Shown in pieces: positions 906-42,600 of a DNA stretch of 64,000 bases. Position 1 is the first letter of the stretch. The number at the start of each line of letters is the position of its first letter. Position numbers and translations under genes: made by a program. The notes under the pieces are model-generated. The model saw only the letters and a list, made by a program, of their open reading frames with translations. It did no database searches and was not told the origin of the DNA. This stretch comes from Rapana venosa (taxonomy: Eukaryota > Mollusca > Gastropoda > Neogastropoda > Muricidae). The DNA lies in NCBI GenBank assembly GCA_028751875.1, contig CM054145.1, positions 5,263,626-5,327,625 of the forward strand. The letters run 5' to 3'.

Positions 906-1376
906 AAACGTTCATTTTTGCAAATAAAAAGATGGTAGAACTTCACAACATTGGGAACATTCAGTAAAGTTTCGGTAAATACTTCTCCTTTTCCCCCCTT
1001 CCTACTTCCTTCTAAATAAAACTAGAACAATTGAAGATAATATACAATGCAAAACTGAAAGTTATAAACAAACAAAGGCGAGGAGTTTTCCAGGAAACAC
1101 TTCAGAACTAAACTGAAACTCAAAAAAAAAATTTTTTTAACACCTTCCAACCAACCAAATGCAAACTGAAAGTAGAAGACATGACGTGTATTCCAAGAAA
1201 ACATTATCATGCGCCTGTGCGTCACCCATCCAAGGGGCGTGTACATGCACAGGCAGGTAGTTCAGGCAGGCGACTGCATAATCATCATTTCAGCCTGCGC
1301 TCTCCAACGAGTCACACACACCGCGGAACAAACCTTCACAAATCTTCGACGCAACACTACCGGGAGGAAAACCAAA
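906..1376 (+). other. 5' flank / putative 5' UTR of the TRIM-C1q gene
   Basis: There is no recognisable gene or repeat here. It lies directly upstream of the chosen start codon at 1377 and probably includes promoter and 5' UTR. An in-frame upstream ATG at 1209 would add 56 residues with no domain character; I treat it as UTR because the ATG at 1377 has the better context (A at -3 and G at +4) and starts just before the RING. No TATA box or transcription start can be fixed by eye. Confidence 0.35.
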
Positions 1377-1784
1377 ATGGATGTTCATGGGGAAAGTAAA
1401 AAGGAATCGGACGATTTTCACCACTGTAGTCTGTGTATGGAATCTTACAGCGTCAGTATCCGAACGCCTAAACTCTTGCCTTGCTTCCACACTTTCTGTC
1501 TCCCGTGTTTGATCACGCTGACACGGGACAGCGTTGGAGAGGAGCCGGAGAAGAAAGAAGGCGAGGAAAAGGAAGGCACCACCAGTGAAGATGAGGTCCC
1601 CAGCCACGAAGATGAAGAACTGGACGATGCTGCAGATCTCAAACCAGATCCCTCTGATGCCGAGAGCGTTCACAGCGAAACCTCTACTGGAAGGAAGTAC
1701 GACGGAAAATGCAAGAAGTCTTTCCGATGCCCCACCTGTCGCAATGTTATCCCTATACCTCCAATGGGACTACGGGGCCTGCAG
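1377..1784 (+). CDS. TRIM-C1q exon 1: RING finger
   Basis: This exon encodes residues 1-136. Zinc ligands are visible as C17-x2-C20, C36-x-H38-x2-C41-x2-C44 and C118-x2-C121, a C3HC4 RING. Between C44 and C118 lie 73 residues rich in Glu, Asp, Ser and Lys, longer than the usual spacing at this position and likely a disordered acidic insert. The exon ends in CAG followed by the donor GTAAGA, phase 0. The start has a good Kozak context (ccaaaATGG). Confidence 0.85.
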
Positions 1785-1986
1785 GTAAGATAGCCTAGTT
1801 ACGTGGTTGTTGAGAGTGTTAATTAATGAAAATCGTGGCCCGGTACAGTTAGTCGTGAGGGCACAGGGAGTGTGAGTCAGTGTCCGCACTATTATTTTAT
1901 GTTGCACGTCTCTTCAGTTGTGGCTGGTTTTTCTGCATGAAATGGTTTTAGGTTGCTGCTGCTGCTGCGCTCTCTCTCGCTCTCCC

Positions 1987-2027
<41 letters not shown>

Positions 2028-5000
2028 GGAGGGTGCTGTTGCCACTAATTTTGTGTGTGTGTGTGTGTGTGTGATCTTAAATCCTGATCAGTTTTGTTTT
2101 GATTTAGAGTATACATTTGGTTTTATGAGAGTGGCTTTCTTTTCTACATAATTTTGCCTGGGACAACTCTCCTGTCTGTGTCTCTATCTGTCTGTCTGTC
2201 TGCTGTCTGTCTCTGTCTCTCTTACATGTGCTAAATACATGTAGCACACGGGACCTCGGTTTATCATCTCATAAGATAGCATAGATTAGCTCCCATCCCA
2301 CCACCCAAGGGCTAGTGGATGGGAAAAAAAGTTTAGGTTCAAAACCTGCACTTGTCGCTTTTTAGGCTGGTGTGCTATCTCTTACACTGATCTGATAGGG
2401 AAACAAATACAGTTGCAGACAGGGAAAATAAATAAATAATGGGTGGCGCTGTTTTTGTGGCGACGCACTCTCCCCAGGGAGCTTGAGCTGTCTCAATGCA
2501 CCTACTCTTCAGGAAGTGGATGAACTTGATACACCAGGTGTGCCTGATCTTGATTGATTCTGTTGTGTTATTTCATTCCAGCAAGAGTGCGCTGGAAGAA
2601 CTGAGCTTTCCATGTTCTGATTATGCTGGACTTAAGTGACTTGCCACAGTGATTTATTTGAACTAACTCTGATGTTGTTTGCCTCTACCTGCACCGTTTT
2701 ATCTTATACTCCTTGTGAAGTTCTTACCTTCAAGGAGAGAATACCACTTTGCTCTGCCATGGGAATTGTACAGTGGTCGGAAACTTTGGTTTAATCCTGG
2801 TAAAACACATTCTTCTTTTTCTTCCAACGCTCAGGCAGCAACCTTTGTTGTCTGTTATATGAGCAAAAATGCGTCACGCTACCCTTATGCACCTTACAAG
2901 TCAGGCCCAGTGCATCTGACTTTGGCATAAAAGAGAATTGTTATCTTTTAAGTCTTTCTGGGAAAAAAGGCAGGAGAATGGACCAAGAAGGCAGAAAATA
3001 GTCAAGAAGGAGGTGACAGGAAGAACAGGAACAAGGCTGAAACAAAGAGATTTTTTTTTTTAAAGAGGAAATTTCTAGCACAGAATTTCCAGAATGTGGG
3101 GATGCTGTTTATAATGATAGGCCCCGGCAACTCCACGTGGGAAGTAAAATGCATGAGATATACTTGATTTCCCATGCTAATGGGCTTCAACACTAAATAT
3201 AGAACATATGCGGCATATTTTCATAGATTTTTTGCTTTATTTTGCGTCTAATGGTAATTCTAATATCAAATTTGTAATGAGTATGTGGAAAGCTTTCAAA
3301 CAATATGTCTCAAGACCATAATTATTACATTCTGTTTAAAAAATAATTATGATAAAATCCAAATTTGATGACGTCATATAATCTTTAAAAAGATGATCTT
3401 CCCACACTTAGATCATCCTACTTTTGGGATATGTTAAAAGTTGGCTACTTTCCTATCAAAATAATAATAAAATCATTACTATTGCAATTAGTTCCTTTCT
3501 TGGCACTTTTTTTTGCAAAGATTGACTAGACTAAATGCTTAACACCAGTTGCATGCATATTCCTGCCTCTCTGTTTCATAGCAATTCGAGTCGCAACTAG
3601 CCTAGCCAAGGCTGAAGTGCCAGATCAGGGTCAGGCCACGTCACATGAAGCTATCGAGAGCACTTGCCCCGGCTTGTGATTGGCTGCTGCAATCACGTGT
3701 CCGGAATCCGCCATCTTGGGCACAATGTCACACCCGCCCACCCTCGTATACACACACACAATTCTGACAATTATAACAATTTTTATGGTATCCACACATC
3801 TTACTACACATGTCATCTAACTTTTTGTAATAGTTTAACGCTTCTCGATCAAAACACGAAAAAACTCACCTGAGAAGTTCATGGTGTTGAGAGAAAACAC
3901 AGACAAGTTGAGAAAACTGCTTGAACTTGAGGTGCTTCGGTCTGGTATCGAACGCAATGGAGGAAAAACGCGCGGAAAGACCACGCGGTAAGCATCACTT
4001 ACCTAATTAGCCAGTGCAGCATCTCTTCATTGGAGATGGGGAAAGTTATCATCTATCAAACAATACGACAGGCCGTTCTGTCCTAGCAGACGAAAAACCA
4101 AGATGGCGGATTCCAGACACGTGATTGCAGCAGCCAATCACAAGCCGGGGCAAGTGCTCTCGATAGCTTCATGTGGCCACTCTGCTCTTCAACCTTGAAC
4201 TCTTGCCTACTGTTGTTTTGCAAGCTGATGCAGTTTATCGCTCGCACAGCGCGGAAGCAAGCGCAGCTCAGTTTGTCGCTACTTGACTAGTCTTGCTCAA
4301 TTTTTGCAGTTTCTGTCTTGCTTTGTTTGAAACGACACAAATCCATTTAACTGGGGCGATCGCAATCAATCAGGCGACTTTACCGTAGGCTACCTTATCG
4401 CGCATGCGCTAATTTAGCAGTTACCTCCCTTGGACATTTCTGGTGTCTGCTAGGCCTACCTTTTTGTGCTTTTCGTCCACACTCCCTCACACATTTCAAC
4501 CTATAGGCTATATGTTGGGACAATCTTGTGTGTGTGTGCACAAAAAAATGCATTTTTCGTTCATCATCATCATCCTTTAACAGTATACTTTCGATAGAGA
4601 AGCCTTGATTTTCCAGATTTTGTTTTCTCAGAGGTTATCATTTTCAAGGGGATTTCAAGGCCTTGCAAACTCTGCATGTAGCACTGCTGCAGTCAGCTGG
4701 TGTGGCTATACACCCAAGATTATCTAGTCAGAACTGGGGTGTCTACGTAACTGCTTAGAACTTCCTTTGAAGGTCCTTAACTTTGTGTCCCTGAAAGTGC
4801 GAGAAAGCCCTGTAGCTAGCTGACAAAACTCCACAGTGGAGTGAATTCCTGAAGGAAGTAATTGCAAGACTCCGCCAGAAAGGGGTTTTATCCCCTCTCA
4901 GTATGCATTCTTTATGTTGTTTTGTTGCTATTGTTTGTTTTCTTTGCTGCCTCATCTTCCCTGATGTTAGTGGCCTGCTGTTACCACGATGCACGTCTCA

Positions 5001-6696
5001 ATCTGTCCGCTCAATCCATACCCAGTTTCGTTATTTTTTATTTATTTTACTTTATTTTTATAGAGGATAATGGAATAAGCATGTATGTGCTTTTTTACAT
5101 CTAGTCCCCGTGTGTATGCGAATTTGTGAATTCTGTCATCTGTTCCCACCGGCACACTATGGCCTACTCTTACGAAAAGCGGAACAGGATTTAGCATGTG
5201 CGCAAGATGTTCTGCGTGAATATTATGTCATATCCTCAGGGTCAGAAGTCCACAGGGAACCCATCACTGTCAGGCTGCCATGGGGCCACCAGCCAGAGGG
5301 GCCCTGCACTGCTGCTGGGTCACTTTGGTGGTGCTTAGTGGTGCCTGTTCTGAGCTAACATACGCTGGACACCACCTCCTAAGCCCCCTATGGGTGACAG
5401 TATTAGCTCAGTCATTGAATCAGACTAAGTGAGTTGCCCACCCGAGGTGGCAACCACCACAGGACCGCCCCAGGTGAACTTTCAACCCCAAAGGCCTTGA
5501 CATAAACTCACCACAGGTACAGAAGTGTTTGGGGAAACCAAAAATGAGGTCACCATGAGACCAGAGCAACTAGCACCAACCACCAAATCAGGGGCATTTC
5601 TTTTTTAATTGTGTGATGGACAGTGAAGATGAGGATGATGTAATGATGCTGCTATGGAAGTGCATATGCTTTGAGACTACCTGACAGAGTTGTACTCTAT
5701 GCTTTCTATCATAATATATCCCGGCATCAACCAGGCTCAGGAGATACAGACACCTGCAGTGTTGGTAAGGTAATTTAAAACAACACTCAAAATCGCATCC
5801 GTAAAGTGGACGAAGCTCTACAGCGTGGTCTCAGTCTTCCCAGTGAGCCCACAGCACACTCACTCTGGATAGGCACCGGCCAGAGCTGGGAAAAATCCCT
5901 ATAACTGATGGAATTTAAACCTGCAAACTTCCAGTCCGTAACCCAAGGCACTGACCCCACGATCCACTCTTAATCAGAATCACATCCGTAACCCATCTGT
6001 TTTCCGTTGCAGACCAATTTCTACGTGACAGCCGACTTGGACGCCAGCGCGGAATCAGTGGACAAGGCCCGTGTCCTGTGTGAGATGTGTGAAGACGGGC
6101 ATCAAGAGGATGCTCAGCACTACTGCCGACAGTGTCAGCAGCACATGTGCCAAACCTGCCGTCGCCTGCACGACCGCGTCACAGGCGCTCGCAGTCATCA
6201 GGTGGAGAAGCTGTTGGATCTCTCCAGGCCCAAAGTGGAATCGGTCAGGCAGGGGATGAAGAAGTGCCAGTTCCACCCTGACCAGCTCCTCTGCTTCCAC
6301 TGCTGCAAGTGCGACGTGACTATCTGCCTGCACTGCAAGCTGACCTCCCATGAAGGTCATGACACCCAGGACATGGCCACGGCTGCTGTCCAAGCCAAAG
6401 AGGAAATGGGAGGTCTAAGAGCTCGGGCAGACCAGCAGGTAAGATTTTTGGTTTCTTTTGGGGGGTGGGGGGTTGCGCAACACGAAATCTAAGCTTGGTT
6501 GCTTTGTTTTGCACATGTACACAAAGAATGCTGTGAAATCAGGGAGGTCGTGATCCACAGGTGGTAAAAAATAATAATAATAATAATAATAAATGGAATT
6601 TATATAGCGGTATCTTGCACAGACAAATCGCTCAACTCATTCTTACACAGTCATGCAACCAATAGCAAGTGATAGTTCTAACAAGTCCAAATGTAT

Positions 6697-6776
<80 letters not shown>

Positions 6777-9700
6777 GTTATACACTTTGGCAGGGTGATG
6801 GATTTTTGGCTGTTGAAAAGCAGGGACAGCTATGAAATGAAACAGGAGAGGAAAATCTTAGGTTTGAAACAAATATGTCTTGAGGCCAGATTTTAAAGTG
6901 TCACAAGAAGGCCTTTGGTGAAGAGAGATAGGGAGGCCATTCCACATTGATGGACCAGAAACAGAGAAAGAGCGACAGCCGACGGTGGACTGGCTGAATC
7001 TAGGTATTCGTAAGGACAAGGTATCTGCTGCAGAGCGGAAGGAACAAGGAGTGTAAAGGTCAAGACATTCACAGAGGTAGGAGGGTGCTATTTTGTGGAG
7101 ACATTTGTAACAGAGAGTACTGATCTTATAGTTTATTCTTTGTGACACAGGCAGCCAGTGGAGAGATCGCAAGAGAGGGGTACTGTGCTCAGATTTTTTC
7201 TTTCTGAGGACTAGTCGAGCTGCAGAGGTGGTGAATGTGGACAAAGTGTTCAGTTCAAATTTGCTGTGAGGAGACACAACTGTCAGTTTCCCCCACTTTC
7301 ATCTATTCTTGGCTGCTATCCATCCCATCCCAGCCCAGCTGGTGCTAAATTTAGCAGGACCTGACCACACTTGGACTTGGTGAAAGGAAGTGGCACACTA
7401 ATTTTAGCACTGGGCCCTTCGACCAAGTTATGCTGGATTTGCGCGCTGTGGAGAGTGCATTGCAGTGCCTTAGTAGACAGAATGCCGGATTTCTATGTGA
7501 CAGATCTTTGTAAAACACTGGGCATAATCTTTGTTTCTACTACTGTTTTTACCATTATTTTTTGCTACCATTATTCATTCACATCCTTTTTTTAAAGTCT
7601 TTTTTCAATAGAAATATACAGTCTTGCAGTGATTGAGAATAGCAGGCAAAGGTGGGTGGCTTTTTAAACTATGCAAACAATGGACAGAAAATGAAATGTA
7701 GGTTATAGTCAAGATATCCCCCAACGTCTTACAGATATCCCCCAACGTCTTACAGATATCCCCCAAAGTCTTACAGATATCCCCCAAAGTCTTACAGATA
7801 TCCCCAAAGTAAGAATACGGCTAACTGGGTGGTGGGTAAACGGTCGTGTTTGCAAAATATCATCATTGGTGAACCTCAGAGCTCTAGCTGAGGAACGGAG
7901 GGGGGGAAAAAAAGCTTGAAATGTTCGGCACTGTGGTTGGAAAAATATATTCAGATGCCTGTTTTCTCATGTTTTTATCTGTCAGAATCTCAGCAAGATC
8001 ATTGCTGTGTTGCTGATGACAGTGGGTGTGATTACTAGTCATTACAAACAATGATAATGTCATCACCATCCATGACCATCATTATCATCCTCCTCATTGA
8101 ATTCCAGCTACTGTTACTAGAAGCCTGCATCAGTCGCCTGGAGAGAGACGAACTGGATATGCAACGCCAGAAACAGGACGTCAGCCACCAGGTGTCCTCT
8201 CGCTACGATCAGCTGATCGGATGGGCTGCACGGGCCCGGGACGAGCTCCTGGAAGAGGTGGCAGCCAAAGAGCAAGCCTTCCTGAGCGACATCCACCTGA
8301 AGAAGGCGTCCGCCTCCTTCTTCAAAGGCAACCTCTTCAGCAAGAAGATGCGAGCCTCCCAGACCACCACCAGCCTTGGGTCCGACGTGGTTTTGCTGAA
8401 GAACGAGCTGCAAGGGGCACTACTGAAAGACGAAGCACTGGAGGAGCACCAGAAGCTGGCAGCCAGAAAAACGCACCAGACATTTTTCAGAAGTTTCAAC
8501 GAGACGACGGCCTTGGAGCTAGCGACCGTGCGGGCCTTCATGGGTGAACTGGTGGAGGCCTCTGCAGACGATGGTGATCTCCCTGAGTTCTCTTTCTGGG
8601 AACTGGGTCAGGCAGTCACCAAAATGCAAGCGGATCTTCAGGAATTGAAAGGTAAGTTCTTGGATTGTGAGTTTCTCTCAGCTGAGTTGCTTAGCTGTAA
8701 CTAGGTTGAGTCGTCATCCGTAGCGCAGGTATCTATTTCACTGCAGGATGATGGGTAGACCTGGCACTTTTTGCTGTGGATATTATGTTATATTCTGTGA
8801 GGTTGCATTATGTATTATTGTGAATGCATTACTGTGAATGCATTATTACAAATATGTAGTTCAATATCATATCTACTGATGCACTGTTTTGGGCATTCAC
8901 TGAGAAGCAAGCGAAACCCAGAACTGGGCAGAAGTGACACATTTCAGCCAATACCGAGCATGTAATGACAGAATTGATGCGGGTTGTCAACATTTCATTT
9001 ATATTATCACACGTTGTAAGTGGGTTTGTTTGGGGCAGGGGGGGGGGGGGGGTCCTTTAGCGATTGATTTTTTTCTTCTTGTGAAAGGAAACATTTTGAT
9101 ACAGTAAACAGTCCCAGCTTTCTCAAGTCGTCCTTTCAGAACAAGATGGTGCAGGTTGTCTACTGGGTTTACTCCTGTCATCTGGGCCGCCATCTTGAAC
9201 TGATGTGCACTTCCATGAAAAATGATCGTGCATTTCATTTATATGTATGCACACGATGTAATGAGCGCTTTTGCACACAGGAGCTTAGTATGAAACCCCA
9301 TCCAAATTACTTGCTGGGGAATACAGTCAGACCGAGTGTAAACTGCAGAAGGTGGCACTGACCAAAGTGCTTAGCTGTGACCCCAGCCGTCTACCATCAG
9401 ATAGGGAATCTGGCACAGCCCACAAGCTTTGTCAGTAACTGTTATTGCTGTCAGCAAAGTGCCAGGGTCTACATTTGGAAATGTTGCTATGCTTTCATAT
9501 CCAGACTGTACTTCAGCCATGACAAGCTCTTAGCATAAACAAACCTTGCTCTCCCATGAACGAGAAGAAAACAAAACAAACTCTGAAGTCAGTGTGGCTG
9601 CCTATATTTGTGGTAAGGTTCTTGTAAAACAGCCGTACTGCGAATTTCTCATCCAGTGGGTTTTTTTTGGGGGGTGCGGGTTTTTTTTTGTTTTTGGTCA

Positions 9701-10585
9701 CATAGTGATTGCCAGGTGGGATGAGTGAGGTGGTGTATATTCTGGCTTACCCCCAGGGCGTTAATCTGAGGAGCACACAGTAAGCTCTTAACCATGAAGC
9801 TATTCTGCTTCTTTTCTTCTTTTTTTTATTAATATGTTCTATTTTCCAGGTGGGGTCTTTTTTTATATGCAGTCCACTTGGCAATACCGTAAATGCTTTA
9901 GAAAATTCTCTCCAATGATTAGTATCGTATTTTGTATGATTGCGAGTTACTTTGTCCTTCTTGTAGACCACACTGATACCATGTGTGTGAGTGTGTGTGT
10001 GTGTGTGTTTGTACGCGAGCGCGCATGTTTGTGTCTGTCTGATTCTGCCAGTGTCCCTGTGTGTACGCGCATGTGTGTACACATGCATCTGTGTACACAT
10101 GCAATGTTCACATCTGTGTACTCGTGCAATGTGCGTCTGTGTGCAAGCACTTCTGTAGCATATGCATGCATACACAGAACTAAATTTTTATGTGTGCAGA
10201 CAAAGTCCCTGTCAACAACAAAGTGTCTTTCCACGCAAAACTGATAGTTAAGAGCACCTACAACGTTAACCAGAAAATTATTTTCGGCCAAGTCCTGACT
10301 AACGAAAGCAACGGCTACAACAACAGCACTGGTATCTTCACAGCCCCAGCAGAAGGTACCTACATGTTCACGACGACCGTTCGAAACTATTCAAACGGCT
10401 GTGGCTGCAGCGTTGCTTTGATGGTCAATGGTGTAGACTGGGCACAAACGTGTGCACCAGAAACCTCCACTGCTCACTGTGTGGCTACGCTGAAGGAAGG
10501 GGAGCAGGTTTGGGTGCAGCCGCTCCAGAACACTACATTTATGGCAAATGCCTGTATGTTTTCTGGTGCTCTTGTTTCTCTGTAA
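1377..10585 (+). CDS. TRIM-like E3 ubiquitin ligase with C-terminal C1q domain (RING-Bbox1-Bbox2-CC-C1q), 4 exons
   Basis: This is the whole-gene span. Exons 1377-1784, 6013-6438, 8108-8651 and 10200-10585 have clean GT/AG borders and compatible phases (0, 0, 1), and total 1764 nt, or 587 residues plus a TAA stop. Domains in order are: RING at residues 17-121, B-box 1 at 159-198, B-box 2 at 221-252, coiled coil about 279-455, C1q at 460-587. The RING/B-box/coiled-coil order is that of TRIM ligases, where the RING recruits a ubiquitin-loaded E2, the coiled coil dimerises and the C-terminal domain selects the target. Here that last position holds a C1q domain, normally found in secreted recognition proteins. 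There is no signal peptide ahead of the RING, so a cytosolic protein is expected. Function in innate immunity is inference. The alternative is that the C1q exon belongs to a separate transcript, but it has no start or signal peptide of its own here and its entry phase fits exon 3. Confidence 0.82.
1968..2072. repeat. CT and GT microsatellites
   Basis: There is a run of CT dinucleotides to about 2024, then a GT run at about 2054-2072. A further TCTG-rich stretch is at 2172-2222. The 77-residue reading frame over it is low complexity and not a gene. Confidence 0.85.
2225..2500. mobile_element. Composite of SINE family 2 pieces in opposite orientations
   Basis: At 2225-2360 the sequence (gggacctcggtttatcatct, ggatgggaaa) matches the minus orientation of the copy at 11995-12310. 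At 2390-2500 (tctgatagggaaacaaatac, gtggcgacgcactctcccca) it matches the other half in plus orientation. The two halves therefore face each other, indicating a rearranged or double insertion. Confidence 0.5.
3634..4180. mobile_element. Foldback MITE with long terminal inverted repeats
   Basis: The left arm at 3634-3719 and the right arm at 4098-4180 are reverse complements over about 80 bp with only a few differences, including a 5-base insertion near the outer end (ggccacgtcac versus ggccac). The shared core includes cttgccccggcttgtgattg. About 380 bp of AT-rich sequence lies between the arms and has no transposase. I could not settle a target-site duplication. Confidence 0.75.
5038..5222 (-). 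mobile_element. SINE family 1 fragment
   Basis: It matches the body of the element at 181-535: gaggataatggaataagc, ccccgtgtgtatgcg, ctgtcatctgttcccaccgg and gcgcaagatgttctgcgtg appear in the same order. The tRNA head is missing. Confidence 0.6.
5235..5975 (-). mobile_element. Long tRNA-headed dispersed repeat, family 3
   Basis: Blocks such as cactctatgctttc-like, ggagatacagacacctgc and gcacactcactctgg recur in order at 26315-26715 and 36600-37333. In the best copy (36.6-37.3 kb) the minus-strand start is a tRNA-like head with a B box (GGTTTGAATCC). The copy here is older, with a partly decayed head (atggaatttaaacctgcaaa). Confidence 0.6.
6013..6438 (+). CDS. TRIM-C1q exon 2: B-box 1 and B-box 2
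   Basis: This exon encodes residues 137-278. It opens with TNFYVTADLD, so with the end of exon 1 it reads LQTNFYV, the junction commonly seen after TRIM RINGs. B-box 1 ligands are C159, C162, C174, C177, C182, C185, H189 and H198. B-box 2 ligands are C221, H224, C233, C236, C241, C244, H249 and H252. The acceptor is TTGCAG, the donor CAG/GTAAGA, and both borders are phase 0. B-boxes bind zinc and support RING oligomerisation. Confidence 0.88.
6569..7277 (-). mobile_element. CR1/L2-like LINE, 3' end with reverse-transcriptase C-terminus
   Basis: Minus-strand frame 7277-6858 reads through LHWLPVSQRINYKISTL, then LCYKCLHKIAPSYL, then WNGLP, and ends in LKTYLFQT, the conserved C-terminal segment of CR1/L2-type polyproteins. 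The element continues to a 3' end with the TATAAATTCCATTTATT motif and an (ATT)n tail at 6569-6592. Similar 3' tails occur near 38618 and 45121. The copy is 5'-truncated and carries an AG microsatellite in its 3' UTR. Confidence 0.8.
6703..6775. repeat. AG microsatellite
   Basis: About 35 AG dinucleotides with one interruption (aaagag) near the end. Short RE/ER-repeat frames over it are artefacts. Confidence 0.95.
7711..7805. repeat. 21-bp tandem array
   Basis: A unit of 21 bp (agatatcccccaacgtcttac and variants with aaag for aacg) is repeated between four and five times. Because 21 is a multiple of three, the minus strand stays open as a GDICKTL repeat; there is no other reason to call it coding. 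Confidence 0.85.
8108..8651 (+). CDS. TRIM-C1q exon 3: coiled coil
   Basis: This exon encodes residues 279-459 plus the first base of codon 460. It is rich in Leu, Glu, Lys, Gln and Arg with heptad-like spacing (for example CISRLERDELDMQRQKQDV), as in the antiparallel coiled coil of TRIM proteins that drives dimerisation. The acceptor is TTCCAG and the donor is AAAG/GTAAGT, phase 1. Reading continues past the donor for 17 codons before a stop, which is intronic. Confidence 0.82.
8652..10199 (+). other. Intron 3 of the TRIM-C1q gene
   Basis: The intron runs from donor GTAAGT to acceptor GTGTGCAG. It contains a poly-G run near 9040-9053 and GT-rich sequence at about 9980-10190 that reaches the acceptor. 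I see no gene or clear mobile element. Confidence 0.65.
10200..10585 (+). CDS. TRIM-C1q exon 4: C1q domain
   Basis: This exon encodes residues 460-587 and ends in TAA at 10583-10585. The jelly-roll C1q pattern is clear: KVSFHAKL at the start, NNSTGIFTAPAEGTYMF in the middle (the C1q signature with the F-x5-G-x-Y-x-F spacing) and FSGALVSL at the end. Five cysteines lie in the second half, including GCGC. The entry phase (AC completing an Asp codon) fits exon 3. C1q domains of this size are abundant in molluscs, mostly in secreted proteins; I see no secretion signal in this gene. Confidence 0.85.
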
Positions 10586-11336
10586 AGATGATCTGCCCCC
10601 CCCCCCTCCCACCTACCCCCACCTTTAAGTTTTTGGACCTATTTTCTTCTGAAGGCTTACCAAGGTATCAGCGACAGCAAACAGCACTGCTGGTGAAAGG
10701 CTTGCTTCTGACTTGCAACTTGGGGCCACAGACTTCATGGGCTCTGTTCAATTTTGTCAAATAACACTGAGTCTCATTTGGGGTTTTGGTGGTGGTAGTG
10801 GTCATTTGATATGTCTGCCCATCGTGTTCGACAATGACCTCCAAAACGCAGAGGTGGCAGCTGCTGTTTTGGAAATTGAGCAGAAATTTGATTACAGTGG
10901 GGATGCCTTGCCATAGTACACCCTACTCTCATGGCCAAGTGGGCATAAGGACAGTCAGCGTTGGAGATGTTCTCCAAAAGCCAACTAGCCCCCAGGGCTG
11001 CAGCACATAAGGACTGTGCAAGTCGAGCCTCCTAGTCAGAGAGTCATAGTCAATCACTACAGACTAAGCTGTAAAGTGGAAAGCCACTGATCATACAGCC
11101 TATCACTTTGCTGTTGCTCCCAGCATCAATGGTTAATCAAGTGCTGTGATAAAGCCCAGGTGCTGAAGGCATAGCTTTCTAACCATAATATACATGTACA
11201 GGGTTATCAGCATGGCCATACTTGTAAGCAATCCTTGTCTTTCTCGGGAGTACCTGACACTGGCGTATTTCGTTCAGCCCCAAAAGAACAGAGCACCCCC
11301 TATGCTGGAAAAGCGAGAAAAGCTGGTGGACTCTGG
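10586..11336 (+). other. 3' flank of the TRIM-C1q gene
   Basis: This probably includes the 3' UTR. No AATAAA signal is obvious close to the stop codon. There is a C-rich run at about 10596-10621 and no gene or repeat that I can name. Confidence 0.4.
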
Positions 11337-11772
11337 GGAAGAAAAAGCACCAGCATTGAGGATAACAATATGGGGAAGAAAAAGCACCAGCATTGAGGAT
11401 AACAATATGGGGAAGAAAAAGCACCAACATTGAGGATAACAATATGGGGAAGAAAAAGCACCAACATTGAGGATAACAATATGGGGAAGAAAAAGCACCA
11501 ACATTGAGGATAACAATATGGGGAAGAAAAAGCACCAACATTGAGGATAACAATGTGAGGGAAAGAAAAAGCACCAACATTGAGGATAACAATATGGGGA
11601 AGAAAAAGCACCAACATTGAGGATAACAATATGGGGAAGAAAAAGCACCAACATTGAGGATAACAATGTGAGGGAAAGAAAAAGCACCAACATTGAGGAT
11701 AACAATATGGGGAAGAAAAAGCACCAACATTGAGGATAACAATATGGGGAAGAAAAAGCACCACATTGAGGA
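11337..11772. repeat. 38-bp minisatellite
   Basis: About eleven copies of a 38-bp unit (core gaagaaaaagcaccaacatt then gaggataacaatatgggg). The first copies have cagcatt and two internal copies have a 40-bp form (aatgtgagggaaag). Because 38 is not a multiple of three, all minus-strand frames remain open and rotate, producing three long overlapping false ORFs. Confidence 0.95.
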
Positions 11773-15419: not shown

Positions 15420-16195
15420 CTTCGTCATCCATTTGTACAGGCACAAAATGGCCTACTCTTCATAAAGGTGGAACAGGTTTTAACATGTGCACAGGATGTT
15501 CTTTGTGTGTTTGAACATGAGACCTCGGTTTCTAGTCTCATCCAAGGGACTTTCGGGGGGGGGGGGGGGGAGGAGGGGAGTCAGCATGATGTTAACTCCA
15601 GGAAGGGGGGGGGGGGGGGGGGGAGGAAGGGGGAGTCAGCACTGATGTTAACTCCAGGAAGGGGGGGGGGGGAAGGAGGGGAGTCAGCACTGATGTTAAC
15701 TCCAGGAAGGGGGGGGGGGGGGGGGGGGGAAGGAGGGGAGTCAGCACTGATGTTAACTCCAGGAGAGGGGGGGGGGGAAGGAGGGGAGTCAGCACTGATG
15801 TTAACTCCAGGAAGGGGGGGAGGAGGGGAGTCAGCACTGATGTTAACTCCAGGAAGGGGGGGGGGGGAAGGAGGGGAGTCAGCACTGATGTTAACTCCAG
15901 GAAGGGGGGGGGGGGGGGGGGGGTCAGCACTGATGTTAACTCCAGGAAGGGGGGGGGGGGTCAGCACTGATGTTAACTCCAGGAAGGGGGGGGGGGGGGT
16001 CAGCACTGATGTTAACTCCAGGAAGGGGGGGGGGGGGGTCAGCACTGATGTTAACTCCAGGAAGGGGGGGGGGGGAGTCAGCACTGATGTTAACTCCAGG
16101 AAGGGGGGGGGAATCCCCTTGAACAGGCACCTCAGTGACAGTTTGAATCTGGTCGGTGGGATCAAGAGCGCACTGTTCTACCACTAGGCTATGCC
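15420..16195 (-). mobile_element. SINE family 1 copy with internal G-rich minisatellite
   Basis: The left part (ggcctactcttcataaagg, ttttaacatgtgcacaggat) and right part (aatccccttgaacaggcac, and a head-like aagagcgcactgttctacca) match the family 1 SINE at 181-535. In that reference copy the motif gtcagcactaatgttaactc occurs once, between them. Here the equivalent segment, with a G run, is repeated about twelve times from 15555 to 16110. The poly-G lengths vary from copy to copy. The long G/P-rich ORFs on both strands are artefacts. Confidence 0.8.
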
Positions 16196-17679: not shown

Positions 17680-17789
17680 TTATAATCAATCAAAATCTCA
17701 ATCACAACCTGACCTCCACCTGCTTAAAATGACTCCTAGCAGAAAAGTGGGTCAGGTGCAAAGCGACTCATTTTGTGGTGGAGTGTCAC
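17680..17789. repeat. Dispersed repeat adjoining the 34-bp array
   Basis: The segment with ctcctagcagaaaagtgggt and gtggtggagtgtcaca is closely matched in reverse complement at about 46050-46150 (acttttccaccaggagccat, gtgacactccgccacaac). The 34-bp array begins immediately after it here, but there is no array at the 46 kb copy. Confidence 0.65.
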
Positions 17790-18600
17790 ATTTCTTCCTG
17801 TATGTAGACATAAGACGTTTGACTTTTCTTCCTGTATGTAGACGTAACACGTTTGACTTTTCTTCCTGTATGTAGACATAACACGTTTGACTTTTCTTCC
17901 TGTATGTACATAGCACGTTTGACTTTTCTTCCTGTATGTAGACATAACACATTTGGTTTTCTTCCTGTATGTAGACATAGCACGTTTGACTTTTCTTCCT
18001 GTATGTAGACATAGCACGTTTGACTTTTCTTCCTGTATGTAGACATAGCACGTTTGACTTTTCTTCCTGTATGTAGACATAGCACGTTTGACTTTTCTTC
18101 CTGTATGTAGACATAACACATTTGGTTTTCTTCCTGTATGTACATAGCACGTTTGACTTTCCTTCCTGTATGTAGACGTAGCACGTTTGACTTTCCTTCC
18201 TGTATGTAGACGTAGCACGTTTGACTTTCCTTCCTGTATGTAGACATAACACGTTTGACTTTTCTTCCTGTATGTAGACATAACACGTTTGACTTTCCTT
18301 CCTGTATGTAGACATAACACGTTTGACTTTTCTTCCTGTATGTAGACATAACACGTTTGACTTTTCTTCCTGTATGTAGACATAACACGTTTGACTTTTC
18401 TTCCTGTATGTAGACATAACACGTTTGACTTTTCTTCCTGTATGTAGACATAACACGTTTGACTTTTCTTCCTGTATGTAGACATAACACATTTGACTTT
18501 TCTTCCTTTATGCAGGACGTTAACATAACACATGATTTGACTTTTCTTCCTTTATGCAGGACATAAACATAACACACAATTTGATTTTTCTTCCTGTATG
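17790..18600. repeat. 34-bp minisatellite
   Basis: More than twenty copies of a 34-bp unit (core cttcctgtatgtagacataa then cacgtttgactttt). Variants gacatagcac, gacgtagcac and a shortened tgtacatagc form cluster locally, which indicates recent local homogenisation. The last three copies are more diverged (tttatgcaggacg). Three overlapping long minus-strand ORFs rich in TGRKVKR are artefacts, since 34 is not a multiple of three. Confidence 0.95.
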
Positions 18601-19664
18601 CAAAGTACATGATTTACACATATTCATGATGTATAATTCAGACTGATCTACAAGACTTATGGAACATTTTTTTGGTAGGAAATCTTTTTTTTTTCTCTCT
18701 CTCAGTGGATCAGGTTATATTACATGCTTTCTAAGAAAAGTATTGATGTTCTAATTTCTTTTCTTTAAAAATAAAAAAATTCTGCATTTAGAGTAATGTT
18801 TGAATATTCTGAAAAAAGCCAATCTATAAAAAAACAACTCAAATATTTTCTTTTGGTTTTGTTTAAGTCGATTTCTCTAAGAAAGAAGCTTTAGAGGAAA
18901 CTAAATACATATGAATTTGAAGATTTCTTTCGTTTTTCAAAATAAAACTGGAAACATTTCTCTTTTAATAAAGATTAGTTTCAGAATTCTTTGGTGTTAT
19001 CTTATTTTGTATGTATGTATGTACGTATCATAGATGTCAATGATGGAATTTCAATTTGGGAAAGGGGGTGGGAGGGTTTAGGAGGACAGCTTACCCCCCC
19101 CCCCTCCCTCTCCCCCTTTCTCGAAAAAGCAGGGGGCACAGCGCCCCCCAAAGCTAAAGCATTTTTACGCTTAAAGCATTTAACATTTCATCTCCTGACA
19201 AAACAGTATAGTCAGGAAAGAACAGTGTGCTACACTTTGAAATGAAATGGCTGTAGGCAGAAACCAAAAGTACAGATATCACTTATCACATCTGCTTTCA
19301 CAAAGTACAAAATCCGTAAACAAAATCGTGTTAAGACAAGCATTAACACCAGCTGAGCTGATCTTTTGTTGCTTTTTCTTTTATTTGTTATATAGCAGAT
19401 CTTGAGGAAGGTGGTTTTCATTGGTCCATGGGACAAGTGAAGGTGAAAGTGAAAGGTGGGTGGTATAAGATCCACAGTATCGAATCTGGGCCGGGCTATG
19501 TTGGAACTTCGTAACTGGCTACAGCTTCACATTTGTCCACCCACTACTGCCTGCAGGCCGATAGATACCCTTTATCACATGCTCAGCAAAACCACTTGAT
19601 GTGTTTGTTGCTACTTCGGTAATCTAGTCCCTGAACTCTGCTTTCATCAGTTCTACAGCATTAA
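18601..19664. other. Intergenic sequence without recognised feature
   Basis: AT-rich, with a C run near 19096-19106. No family resemblance found in any frame. Confidence 0.4.
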
Positions 19665-33600: not shown

Positions 33601-36600
33601 TGGAGAGCAAGGAGGTCAAGATCTACCCAAACTCCAAGCCATGGATCTCCAAAGAACTCCGCACCTTGATTGAAAGAACTTTCAAATGACATGAAAACTT
33701 CAAAGAGATTCAGAAAGCAATAAACAAGAGAATACAAGCAGACAAGGAGGAGTATTCTGCAAAGGTGGAGGAACATTTTTGTCAAAACAGGCCCAAACAG
33801 TTCTGGAAGGACGTCCAAACTATAACTGGATATAAAGCAAAAAAAGGGGAGATTGTGACAGAGGATGTCCCCATAGCTGGAACACCACACACTCACAGTT
33901 CTTATACCAGTTTGACCAGAAGAACTTTCAAACAGAACAAGCAGAAGCTATGAAGACCGTTAAAACACTAAACAGCATCTCCAGTGATCATGAAGAGAAT
34001 GAGGTGCAGCAACTGTAGAGTTGCGTGTGCCCCGACTACATCAGCGCTAAACCCAGGGATGCCGTGACTCTCTTGCTCCAGTCTTCACTCGCCTGTTCCA
34101 GTAATTCCCTTTGACACCGGGCACATCCTCAGCGTCTGGAAAACCTTGACAATTATCCACAGTCCTCAAAGAAACAACTCCAGCAATTAAATGACTATAG
34201 GCCTGTAGCATTAACATCAATCCCATTCAAGTGTGCTGAAAAAATCGTTCCTCATCAGCTGAGGCTCCAGACTGCAGAGCACCAAGACCCCTCCAGTTTG
34301 CCTGTTCTAAAGGCAGGGGCACAGACGATGCTCTGCTGACTCTACTGCACAATCTATATGAACATTTACACCGTCCAGGAACTTACACCAGAATTCTTTT
34401 TCTGATTTTTCAAGTGCTTTTAATACATTACAACCTCATCTTTTATGCAGAAACTGCTGGCATGAATGTCAAACCAACACTGATAGCATGGATTTTTAGC
34501 TTTTTAACAGAAAGACCACAAAGAGTGAGGATAGGGCAAACTGTGTCAGACTACCTGTTGACTAATACAGGGGCCCCCCAAGGATGTGTTCTATCACCAG
34601 TCCTTTTTACCCTCTACACAGCTGACTGTCGCTTTACCGCTGACAACAATATTCAAATCAAGTTTGCTGACGATACATCACTAACTGGGCTTCTGAAGAG
34701 CAGTGAGACCTCATACAGATCCACAGTCAAGTTTTAGAAGACTGGTGTGACAAGAAACTATCTGGAAATGAATGTGTCAAAAACAGAAAGAATGATAGTT
34801 GATTTCCGAAAGGAAAAGCAAGCAGCACCAGTTACCATCAAGAATGAAGAAGTGCGGATAACCAGTGCTTATAGATATCTTGGCACGATTATTGACGACA
34901 GGCTGAGGGGGACTGAAAATGTTGATGACTGTTATAAGAAAGCAAACCAAAGAATGTTCTTAAGAAAACTGCGAAGCTATTTTACTGAGGTTTTATCAAG
35001 CTGCAGTGCAAAGCATTGCATTGTACAATCCAATCTGCTATTTAGTAACACCAGAAAATCTGACACCAACAAGCTAGACCGCATCACAAAAGCAGCACCA
35101 AAGATCATCCAAAAGGACATCACTCCAGCCTCGAGTCTCTACGAGAAGAGCTGCCTGAAGAAGTTGACCAGGATCATGAAGGACAACACCCATCCTCTCC
35201 ACCCTGCACTGGCCCAGTGTGCGTCCAAGCGTGAGGTCAGCAGTCGTCTTCTGTCCATAAGAAGCAGAACCTGCCAATACAGAGACTCCTTCCTGCCCAC
35301 AGCTGTCAGACTCTTTAATGTCAACTCCAGTGACAGCATCCTTGCCTGCACCGAAGAGAGCCGGAGAAAGAGAGAGTGTATGTGTGTGTGGATGGGTGTT
35401 GTGTTCTGCCATTCAGGTGTGCGCGCGTGTGTGTGAACAGATGTATAGGGGCATAGAAGTAGGGGTGGTGGGTGGGTGGATGGACGGATGGCTACATGCT
35501 AGGATGGAGTGGTGGCTGTGTGGAGGGGGAGGGGAGGGTTTGGGGGTCTGTGATGGAACTCACGTGCCCAAGTTGTGTGGCTGCTGTGTGCATGGTCAGG
35601 CATATATGGGCCTCTGAACAGCGTGAAGGGGTTTGTGAGTGTGTAGGGGTGGCGGCGGGGTGGAAGTATGGAGCAGGGTGGTTGTGAGATTAAGGGAAGG
35701 AAGGGGGGTGAGGAGAGGAAGGGGACATGGAATGGAGGAAAAAAGTGTGTGTGTGTATGTGCTTGCATGCGTGCATGCGTCCATGTGTGTGTGTGTGCTC
35801 CAGCTGGAGTGGGAGCAAATGTGCACATTATGCATGTTGTCTGTAGCATGTACTTGTAGGCCTAGTGGCGGGTTGCATGGTGGTGGCTGTGGTGCCAGGG
35901 AAGGGTGGGGGGGGGGGGGGTGTTTCAGAGGCTGGGTGTGCTGACTGAGGGAAGGAAGGAAGGAGCTGGGGGTGCAGCACCATGGCTGCTGGGCTGTCAG
36001 TGGACTTCTGGCTGTCCACTCTTACTTTGTGCTCGGTGCTGTTGTAGCCCTTCCTTTGTATGTTTTGTTTGATATGCTTGAGCACCATTTTCATCTTAAT
36101 ATTCAACTGGAATTTTTATTACTGTTTGATTCTTTTAGCTTGATGTGTGTGGGTGTGTGTGTGTGTGTGCGTGCGTGCGTGTGCTTGTGGGTTTGTGTGT
36201 TGTGTTTGCGCATGTGTATATGTATGTGTGTGTGTACATGCATTCGCGTAGGTGCGTGCCGCGCGCGCGCGTGTGCGTGTGTTTAACTACTGTTACCTTT
36301 TATCCCGTGTGTTCAGATTTATGTATGTCCATATGATCTGATATGATTTTAATCAATGTAAAACAAATTTCCTTTAATAGAATTGTGTGTGAATATGTGA
36401 ATATGTGTTACCTTTTATCATATGCATTCATTTTTATAAATTCTGTATTCTATTACTTTCTTCGATATGTTTTAATCACTGCAAAGCAAATTTCCTTTAA
36501 ACAGAGGACTATAAAAGAATTGAATTGAACTGAATTGAATTGATGTTCCTTTCCACCTATTCCCATGCTGCTCATTTCAATCTCTCCACCCAAGCCATAC

Positions 36601-39600: not shown

Positions 39601-42600
39601 GGCTCAAAGAAGAAACGTAAACCACTAAATAACATCCTGCCCCTGAATTGTCCTGTCACTTAACGTTACTGCCCCTGGGGATGCCTGGCCTGTCAGCATA
39701 ACAGATCCCCACTCTGGATTCTGTGCTAGCAGATTCCTCTTTCCATCCTCTTTCTTTCTGCTGGTTGTTTTTCTCCCTGTCACCACCTTGTTATTTTTGC
39801 CTTCTTGGCCATTTCGCCTTTTCCCAGAGAGACTAAAAATAATAATTCTCTTATGCGAAGTCGGATGTGCTGGGCCTGATTATAGGTGCTTAACAGAACA
39901 GTGCAACGATTTTCGCTCATATGACAAGACAAAATAGTTGCTGTCGGCTTTGACGACGGACGACGACGACGATGGAAGACTTACTGTTGATGAAGACATT
40001 GCAGCCGTGCTTGTGATCCTGCACTTGTCCTTCATTATGGCTTTCTCGCCAGCTCAACTCAGCCACTTTGGACACGGCATGTACGCGTAGCGGGAACCAA
40101 ACACTGTCACACACCACACGCACTAAGCTCTACAATCCTTTCTCTCCGTTATGTTACTGCTCTTATCCAGACACACTCAGAAAATTTCACGACACGAGGT
40201 TTATTCATACTTCATATCCATCATTGCCTTTTATGCTTTTTAATATTTTTTACGTTCAACCAACTAACAGTCATAAGAGAGAACTGTGATTTTTCAAATT
40301 TTGTGTGAGAAATTTAGAACTCGTTGTTATAGTAGTAGCGAGTACCAGAGGCCATATCGTGGCTGTCACCTCATAAGATGTTAAATTTCATAAAATGTGC
40401 AATTTAATACAGATTAACATAAGGTATAAATCAATCGATCTCATTCCTTGTTCAAGCCTGGCCAACCATAAGGGTCACCCGGATGGTCTCCGGTTGTAGG
40501 AGAAACCATCAACCACACATAAAATTAGTAAAACAATAACAGATTCCTTAAAACAACCTGTTCGGAGTGACTATGACACCTCACTTCCCCAAAAAGGACT
40601 TTAAAAATGTAAAAGAAAAGGACACAGATCCCAATTTGTATGCGCTGGATCTTCCACGGCATACACTAAAGCCAAGGAGCAGAAGAGAGATCACAAAAAT
40701 GAGCATGGCTTTTATTTCTTTGGCTGTCCACTACTGACCTTGATTTTATCAGAGTCCATGGGGGTGTTGGCAATGAGGATTTTGCAGTTCTCCATTTTCT
40801 TGGGCTGGTTCAGCCCCACCCTCTTGTCCAGCAGAAACCCTGAACACGCACATGCACGCACATACACACACGTCACATACACACACAATTAAAAGGTTTA
40901 ATTTCGTTCATCCCTTTTCAGGTATGGAGGACTACAAACGAATTCAACAGGAGAATAAACCTAACAGCAATACACCCCAAAATATTATCAATACTAACAG
41001 CAACGAAACACATACACATGTACAAGATATACATAATAGACACTACCACAACTTTAATACCTATATTCATTTCATGCTGCCTATAGCTCACAACCACAAA
41101 ACCCATATCAGGGCTGGTCCTGTGTTCAGTTACCAAACCTACAGGTATATTCACTTGAGTTCAAATTAAGACGGCTGAATCCCGAATATCCAACATTAAC
41201 CCAATCCGGGAAAAAGAAGATAAAATACACAAAAACAAGGAGGCGCTATTCTAACTCTAAAGGGCAGAAGTGGAGTAACATAAAATCGTGGGTCTCACTT
41301 GTCAGGTAGGAGTTCTCAAGTTGCACCAGCTTCTTGATGATCTGAAATGGTCCAGGTTTCCATGCCTGGTACAACAAAGGACACAGGTCTCCTCGGCTGA
41401 GTACTAACACACAGCTGAATACAAACAAACACAACATGCTACCACAGCAGAACACAACACAACATGTACACAGTGAATACGACACAACACTGCTACCACA
41501 GCAGAACACAACACAACACTGCTACACAGCAGAATACACACACACTGCTACCAAGTGAATACAACACAACACTGTACCACAGCGAGACACAAACACATAC
41601 ACTGCTGTTACCACAGCAGACACAACCACACTGCTACCACAGCAAAACAAACACAAACTGCTACACGCTGAATCAACACAACACGCTACCAAGCAGAAAC
41701 AACACAACACTGCTACCACAGCAGATACAACACAACATGCTACCAAGCAGAATACAACACAAACTGCTACAACAGCAGAACACAACACAACACGCTACAC
41801 AGCAGAATCAACAACACTGCTAACAGCGATACAAACAACACTGTACAACAGCTGAATACAAACACACTGTACACAGCGAACACAACACAACACTGTACAC
41901 AGCAGAATACAACACAACACTGCTACCACAGCAGAACACAACACAACACTGCTACCACAGCAGAACACAACACAACACTGCTACCACAGCTGAATACAAC
42001 ACAACACTGCTACCACAGCAGAATACAACACAACACTGCTACAACAGCTGATAAACACACACTGTACCACAGCAGAACAACACAACACTGCTACCACAGC
42101 TGAATACAACACAACACTGTACACAGCTGAATACAACACACACTGCTACACAGCAGAACACAACACAACACTGCTACAACAGCAGAATTACAACAACACT
42201 GCTACCACAGCTGATACAACACAACTGCTACCACAGTGAATACAACACATGCTACACGTGATACAACACAACAGCTGAATTACAACACTAACACTGTACA
42301 CAGCTGATACAACACAACACTGCTACAACAGCTGAATAAACACAACATTTACAACACAACACTGCTAACAGTGAATACAACCAACAGCTACAACAGCTGA
42401 ATACAACACAGCTACAACAGCTGAATACAACACAACACTGCTACAACAGCTGAATACAACACAACACTGCTACTACAGCAGAATACAACACAACACTGCT
42501 ACAACAGCTGAATACAACACAACACTGCTACAACAGCTGAATACAACACAACACTGCTACAACAGCTGAATACAACACACAGCTACACAAAGCAGAAACA

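Follow-up and report, generated by a model that had tools for sequence, protein, structure and literature searches.

TRIM coiled coils are antiparallel and the C-terminal domains of TRIM proteins recruit the substrate, and RING self-association controls the activity of TRIM2 and TRIM3, according to an excerpt of PMC9732051. Subfamily C of the TRIM family, as listed in a section of PMC3503706, combines classes VII and X (TRIM2, 3, 32, 45, 56 and 71). TRIM21 acts on antibody-coated viruses, as an extract of PMC6722209 describes. Caprin-2 is called a cytoplasmic signalling protein in an excerpt of PMC4440618, and its C1q domain is a homotrimer in the account given in part of PMC11480233.

The window, which is the whole 64,000-nucleotide stretch of Rapana venosa DNA analysed here, contains a four-exon gene on the plus strand. 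The predicted product of 587 amino acids consists of a RING finger, two B-boxes, a coiled coil and a C-terminal C1q domain, in an order given by Pfam, alignment and a profile match. Exon 1 (1377..1784) contains the start codon and a split RING finger with a long acidic insert (residues 50–114). Exon 2 (6013..6438) encodes B-box 1 (C159...H198) and B-box 2 (C221...H252), with PF00643 found in two stretches. Exon 3 (8108..8651) encodes the TRIM coiled coil (a long helix), further helices and a short heptad-spaced stalk. Exon 4 (10200..10585) holds a complete C1q domain (residues about 463–587) and the stop codon. The exons are separated by three plus-strand GT-AG introns, namely intron 1 (1785..6012, phase 0), intron 2 (6439..8107, phase 0) and intron 3 (8652..10199, phase 1), the last of which is the fusion joint. 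The 8651/10200 boundary was taken from the preliminary description of the locus and the other boundaries were read off the sequence. A script tested the GT-AG choices at the six boundaries in windows of 11–25 bases, and a single combination was open throughout, giving the 587-residue protein with intron phases of 0, 0 and 1 and the sole open joint reading at each intron.

The exons have a G+C content of 0.48–0.58 versus 0.42–0.44 in the introns. Third-position G+C is 0.66 in the TRIM part and 0.55 in the C1q part. Every exon has matches in proteins of other snails that begin or end within a few codons of the predicted splice points, and the Nucella protein P0001 contains the identical coil-to-C1q joint inside one annotated protein. 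The proposed four-exon splicing rests on this homology and on the automatic gene models of the relatives. At an E-value of up to 1e-3, none of the 53 listed relatives matches the window outside 1332–10579, and these relatives therefore gave no sign of a different tail exon. Rfam at the gathering score and ARAGORN gave zero matches within the window. Directly 5′ of the start codon at 1377 stands AAAACCAAA. The frame upstream of 1377 is open to 1185 and contains a second ATG at 1209. A start at 1209, which adds 56 residues including a short hydrophobic run, was rejected, as the 1377 position is where eight of ten aligned relatives start, with MAT or MAS. In a Kyte-Doolittle scan from the ATG at 1377, the highest 19-residue mean is 1.2, and this absence of a membrane-like hydrophobic stretch ruled out a membrane protein. 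The same scan found no signal-peptide-like N-terminus, which is occupied by the RING finger.

The RING finger is recognized by Pfam from residue 17 (28.1 bits, cut-off 25.2). Its zinc ligands, predicted from the sequence, are C17, C20, C36, H38, C41, C44, C118 and C121, and R122 follows the last of them. The residue in this position of RING fingers, the 'linchpin', helps to hold the ubiquitin-loaded E2. In an 11-row alignment, C118, C121 and R122 are invariant and the six ligands from C17 to C44 are nearly invariant, with P0008 starting after the first RING half. The insert between C44 and C118 contains 23 acidic (D/E) and 10 basic (K/R) residues among the 65 residues at positions 50–114. The RING of TRIM56 (5jw7) was matched by phmmer in two pieces that flank the insert. 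Identity to the Nucella protein is 86% in the first RING half, 73% in the second half and 56% in the insert.

The B-box region scores 24.7 bits in Pfam (cut-off 24.1), in two stretches. The ligands predicted from sequence and alignment are C159, C162, C174, C177, C182, C185, H189 and H198 for B-box 1 and C221, H224, C233, C236, C241, C244, H249 and H252 for B-box 2. B-box 2 is 92% identical to that of Nucella. With the RING, B-boxes and coil arranged N-terminally in order and the predicted zinc ligands present, the predicted protein has the layout of a TRIM of the RBCC type. The putative coil assignment rests on profile matches of the family to TRIM3 (8amr, positions 201–364, E 1.3e-20) and KAP1 (6h3a, positions 124–344). 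In the window protein, the first helix of the coil fails a plain heptad test, with 1353 of 5000 shuffles scoring as high. A single-chain model of Batillaria P0003, built from a 30-row alignment (mean pLDDT 79.1, pTM 0.33), forms one 106-residue helix (239–344) followed by shorter helices. The last helix (423–451) leads into the C1q domain, and confidence is low at its end. In the stalk of the window protein, heptad spacing was equalled or exceeded in 29 of 5000 shuffles. Seven of nine proteins (window protein, P0003, P0006, P0009, P0016, P0023 and P0028) have stalk heptads beyond composition (29 or fewer of 5000 shuffles), and those of P0001 (1222 of 5000) and P0002 (1496) are not significant. 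The stalk is lengthened to 99–244 residues in P0006, P0016, P0023 and P0028.

The C1q domain is called by Pfam at residues 471–585 (62.1 bits, cut-off 23.7, E 7.9e-17). Exon 4 modelled alone reaches a pLDDT of 93 and matches solved C1q domains, among which Caprin-2 and C1ql1 are tied as the closest folds. The predicted fold is a jelly roll with the conserved core residues that characterize C1q/TNF domains. A Foldseek search with the full-length P0003 model returned only C1q entries among the best 50 matches, a result that tests the C1q part and not the coil. In these matches, C1ql1 ranks first and Caprin-2 only 30th; therefore, the likeness to Caprin-2 is not a family trait. Pfam found neither NHL nor filamin in the window protein and no SPRY match at an E-value of up to 1. 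Membership in the NHL class (TRIM subfamily C, class VII) was rejected, as the C-terminal NHL is absent and C1q stands in its place.

The first protein search scored 7998 candidates, limited to those sharing exact words with the query, and listed 53 relatives. The predicted TRIM–C1q fusion is not a chance join, because 11 of the 53 relatives among the matches listed carry a Pfam C1q domain behind a TRIM-like core. These are Nucella P0001 (69% identical to the window protein), Batillaria P0002, P0003 and P0016, Pomacea P0005, P0007, P0008, P0023 and P0028, Littorina P0006 and Babylonia P0009. Nucella, Batillaria and Pomacea belong to three different branches of Caenogastropoda, and Littorina and Babylonia are Caenogastropoda as well. 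The preliminary description had proposed the fusion with these domains and coordinates, which the single open splice reading and the Pfam calls bear out. It had also named absence of the combination from all related genomes as an outcome that would count against it, and the fusion does occur in database entries from five caenogastropod genera.

Among the matches listed, these genera account for 22 named snail proteins, and the other 11 of these lack a Pfam C1q domain. C1q was also found in none of the 11 named relatives from elsewhere (Haliotis, five from Gigantopelta, Dreissena, three from Patella, and Branchiostoma) and in none of the 20 unnamed relatives, again among the matches listed. An alignment-based search, which scored 7997 candidates likewise sharing exact words, listed 51 proteins and none beyond the first set. 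The C1q part of P0005 used as a query gave three matches among 148 candidates, all from Pomacea and all already known. The absence of TRIM–C1q proteins outside Caenogastropoda applies to exact-word protein searches. NCBIfam, a prokaryote library, gave no family in three relatives.

The TRIM core is incomplete in some C1q-bearing proteins. The first RING half is missing from P0008, B-box 2 from P0023 and P0028, and both B-boxes from P0016, and P0006 has a RING and a B-box that fall slightly short of the Pfam cut-offs. The tail of P0001 after the start of C1q and a second TRIM piece in P0002 are likely errors of the automatic models. Database names include 'tripartite motif-containing protein 45-like', 'myosin-13-like', 'hypothetical' and 'uncharacterized', and several gastropod relatives are annotated as TRIM45-like, TRIM56-like or TRIM2. 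Three of five scanned relatives without C1q (P0017, P0018 and P0022) have weak C-terminal NHL matches of 17.7–21.0 bits (cut-off 20, one above); therefore, C1q appears to sit in the place of the substrate domain. NHL gave no match in P0013 and P0015, whose tails are propeller-like by eye only.

Core trees were built from the N-terminal parts of 37 of the 54 sequences (the window protein and 36 of the 53 relatives), leaving out P0011, P0029, P0031, P0035–P0037, P0039–P0046, P0048, P0051 and P0052. In the first tree, rows were cut at 480 residues, and some C1q residues remained in a few rows (e.g. P0008). In the clean-cut tree, C1q-bearing rows ended ahead of the stalk, or at 400 in the case of P0016, and all others at 430. 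A caenogastropod clade of 18 rows holds every C1q-bearing row with support of 100/99 in the first tree and of 98/97 and 98% of 200 bootstrap trees in the clean-cut tree. The closest neighbours of this clade are the C1q-less caenogastropod TRIMs P0013, P0014, P0015 and P0049, and together they form a 22-row group supported at 97/91 in the first tree. Long branches make deep placements in the core trees unsure. Each of the five species has two to five clade members.

C1q most likely joined the TRIM core once, as judged from the sequences, because the core parts form one caenogastropod clade. Five of the 18 rows (P0004, P0010, P0012, P0038 and P0050) have no detected C1q and are read as losses after one gain or as truncated gene models; the database marks P0038 and P0050 as partial. 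By eye, the end of P0010 resembles a frameshifted copy of the P0009 stalk. P0047 was scored as C1q-bearing by eye, as its last residues resemble the start of C1q, and Pfam makes no call. The C1q label needs five changes on the core tree with either cut, and on the tree alone C1q may have been gained several separate times. The neighbouring C1q-less rows suggest that C1q replaced an NHL-type tail, a replacement that is less sure than the single clade. In a tree of C1q alone, three of nine inner branches are starred and the end branches are very long. C1q and core distances correlate with a Mantel r of 0.87, a value that was reached in none of 5000 permutations and is probably owed to close pairs, and with a Spearman coefficient of 0.42; this is a weak sign that the two parts may have travelled together.

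The core used for comparison with C1q comprised the RING halves, the B-boxes and the first coil helix and excluded the RING insert, the helix-2 linker and the stalk. The core is more alike than C1q in eight of eight pairs (p from 0.009 to 8e-7), which share sequences and are not independent. Identity between the window protein and Nucella is 77% in the core and 60% in C1q, and that between Pomacea P0005 and P0008 is 86% and 70%, respectively. Divergence in the excluded parts often equals or exceeds that of C1q. Between the window protein and Nucella, identity in the RING insert (34/61) is lower than in C1q (58/97), and between P0023 and P0028 the helix-2 linker (31/85) is lower than C1q (63/128). 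In the pairs among Pomacea P0005, P0007 and P0008, the stalk is lower than C1q (12/27 in the stalk of P0005 versus P0008). Within C1q, an excess of changes in loops over strands reached p < 0.05 in two of five sets (p 0.037 and 0.018), with p values of 0.07, 0.14 and 0.44 in the rest. The lower conservation of C1q would fit a recognition end under changing demand and, equally, weak or relaxed constraint.

We consider the protein to be a cytosolic TRIM ubiquitin ligase whose C1q end, at the C-terminal target-binding place, picks what is marked, likely in defence, and give this reading a probability of about 0.5. The RING would load an E2 carrying ubiquitin, the coiled coil would pair two chains in an antiparallel manner as in other TRIMs, and the C1q domains would form threes as solved C1q domains do. 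Because a TRIM dimer would contribute two C1q domains and a C1q trimer would take up three, assemblies larger than the dimer would result. The C1q end may bind a repetitive surface, such as a microbial sugar or lipid, exposed phosphatidylserine or an oligomeric protein. Binding to a repetitive target would raise the local RING density and thereby switch on ubiquitin transfer. The intracellular pattern-sensor role suggested at the outset is plausible from the sequence, because the predicted protein has no signal-peptide-like start, its C1q is less conserved than the core, and each species has two to five clade members. The most likely setting would be a defence role directed at invaders in the cytosol or at damaged compartments, because C1q is less conserved than the RING, B-box and coil core and because of these two to five members per species. 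A bolder form of the proposal, which we hold to be rather doubtful, is a cytosolic complement-like sensor in which twofold, antiparallel TRIM dimers and threefold C1q trimers would assemble, on the repetitive surfaces of microbes or damaged membranes, into a self-completing net, so that recognition by C1q would itself ignite RING clustering and ubiquitin coating. Such a sensor would be a counterpart of TRIM21 that needs no antibodies, and it would have arisen a single time, in caenogastropod snails, when C1q took the place of an NHL-type tail. To our knowledge, molluscs have no antibodies.

The rival that survives best, although unlikely, is a non-immune scaffold in which a Caprin-2-like cytosolic C1q trimer would cluster an endogenous receptor or RNP, with the RING regulating turnover in development or signalling. 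The C1q domain of Caprin-2 is one of the two closest solved folds to the exon 4 model, and its trimer is reported in part of PMC11480233 to aid LRP5/6 phosphorylation, probably via aggregation. Roles in the nervous system and in development are described for class VII TRIMs in an excerpt of PMC9732051. However, similarity of the predicted fold is by itself no proof of function, and a conserved developmental scaffold would not be expected to show a less conserved C1q or several clade members in each species.

A catalytically dead remnant, in which the split RING is inactive and the protein is a cytosolic C1q-type binder only, is improbable. The long acidic insert that separates the RING halves speaks for it, but all eight zinc ligands and the following arginine are conserved in every row that includes them, and the insert diverges most (56% identity to Nucella) while the RING halves remain at 86% and 73%.

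Less probable still is a C1q sink, which would join other C1q-domain chains by the shared trimer face so that mislocalised or excess C1q proteins are degraded. The C1q head is a heterotrimer (excerpt of PMC8949502), and 161 C1q-domain proteins were found in a mussel transcriptome (section of PMC5549309), but the gastropod Aplysia has only 11 C1q genes (part of PMC9334734). Moreover, C1q-domain proteins are described as secreted, with four named as lacking a signal peptide, in an extract of PMC10672478; therefore, partners may rarely meet. A gene-prediction fusion of adjacent TRIM and C1q genes that are not spliced together is the least probable reading, since automatic models can hold errors (P0001 tail, P0002 second TRIM piece) but the joint recurs in five named genera and several family members, the reading frame of exon 4 is open only from 10184 onwards and has an ATG at 10190 but no signal-peptide-like stretch, and no listed relative matches the window beyond 1332–10579.

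No description of a TRIM, RING or B-box combined with C1q was found among the open-access papers listed, and within that scope the statement in the preliminary description that no C1q class of TRIM has been described agrees with the literature. C1q does not occur in the main text of the TRIM surveys PMC3503706 and PMC3137616, and the C1q-domain review PMC10672478 contains none of the terms RING, B-box, tripartite and ubiquitin. The combination is likewise not described in the available sections of PMC9334734, PMC5549309, PMC8382680 and PMC10672478. As far as found, TRIM–C1q sequences are public in databases but undescribed. The C-terminal domain is the basis of TRIM classification, and C1q would add a C-terminal class. 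A complement pattern-recognition domain on a TRIM core would let molluscs pass directly from the binding of a pattern to ubiquitin tagging inside the cell. The protein would also be a test bed for whether a twofold coil and a threefold head make ligand-switched ligase assemblies.

The core of the window protein may lie near TRIM subfamily C: its RING is closest to those of TRIM56, TRIM2 and TRIM32 among solved structures, and its B-box 2 and coil match the subfamily member TRIM3 (8amr); KAP1 matches the core too, and gastropod TRIMs with other tails are also among the nearest matches. Unlike this subfamily, it has C1q and no NHL or filamin in Pfam. It shares the C1q fold and conserved core residues with molluscan C1q-domain proteins but differs from them in the attached TRIM core and the lack of a signal-peptide-like start. 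Caprin-2 is described in part of PMC11480233 with HR1, HR2 and C1q, and with no RING or B-box, unlike the window protein. In fish TRIMs, C-terminal exon swaps likewise produced new TRIM architectures, and the gained domains include a chromodomain and RanBD/cyclophilin A, as opposed to C1q here (excerpt of PMC3137616). The window protein would work like TRIM21, in which a recognition domain behind the TRIM core meets the cytosolic invader (extract of PMC6722209), but TRIM21 binds antibody Fc through PRY/SPRY, whereas the window protein carries a C1q tail.

The TRIM-C1q fusion is accompanied by variant architectures among the database relatives of the window protein (P-numbers). Three relatives contain a C1q domain but not the full B-box pair: P0023 and P0028 from Pomacea have no B-box 2, and P0016 from Batillaria has neither B-box. 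Long coiled coils are placed ahead of the C1q domain in all three proteins. The Pomacea relatives P0005, P0007, P0008, P0023 and P0028 probably share one chromosome, given that the longest contig in each of their listings has the same length of 31,531,291 bases.

P0002 (Batillaria) is annotated as a single protein in which RING, B-boxes, coil and C1q are followed by a second B-box and coil piece, and perhaps represents two tandem genes merged into one model. In P0010 (Babylonia), the tail looks by eye as if the P0009 stalk had been translated in the wrong frame, the stalk being the heptad-spaced stretch between the TRIM coil and C1q in the C1q-bearing Babylonia relative; the C1q domain of P0010 may therefore have been lost through a frameshift or an annotation error.

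The gene is located in a repeat-containing window. Directly ahead of the gene, positions of about 455–535 are perhaps a tRNA-derived SINE. By eye, this segment resembles a tRNA T-loop region on the opposite strand; ARAGORN called no tRNA there. The ORF lists reveal long head-to-tail repeats at about 11320–11760, 15500–16180, 17740–18610 and 41400–43150, where several frames are free of stops. Retroelement reverse transcriptase and endonuclease pieces are found at 34240–35436 and 60192–61992 through sub-cut-off Pfam matches to RVT_1 (E = 2.2e-6 and 5.1e-5) and Exo_endo_phos_2 (E = 4.1e-4).
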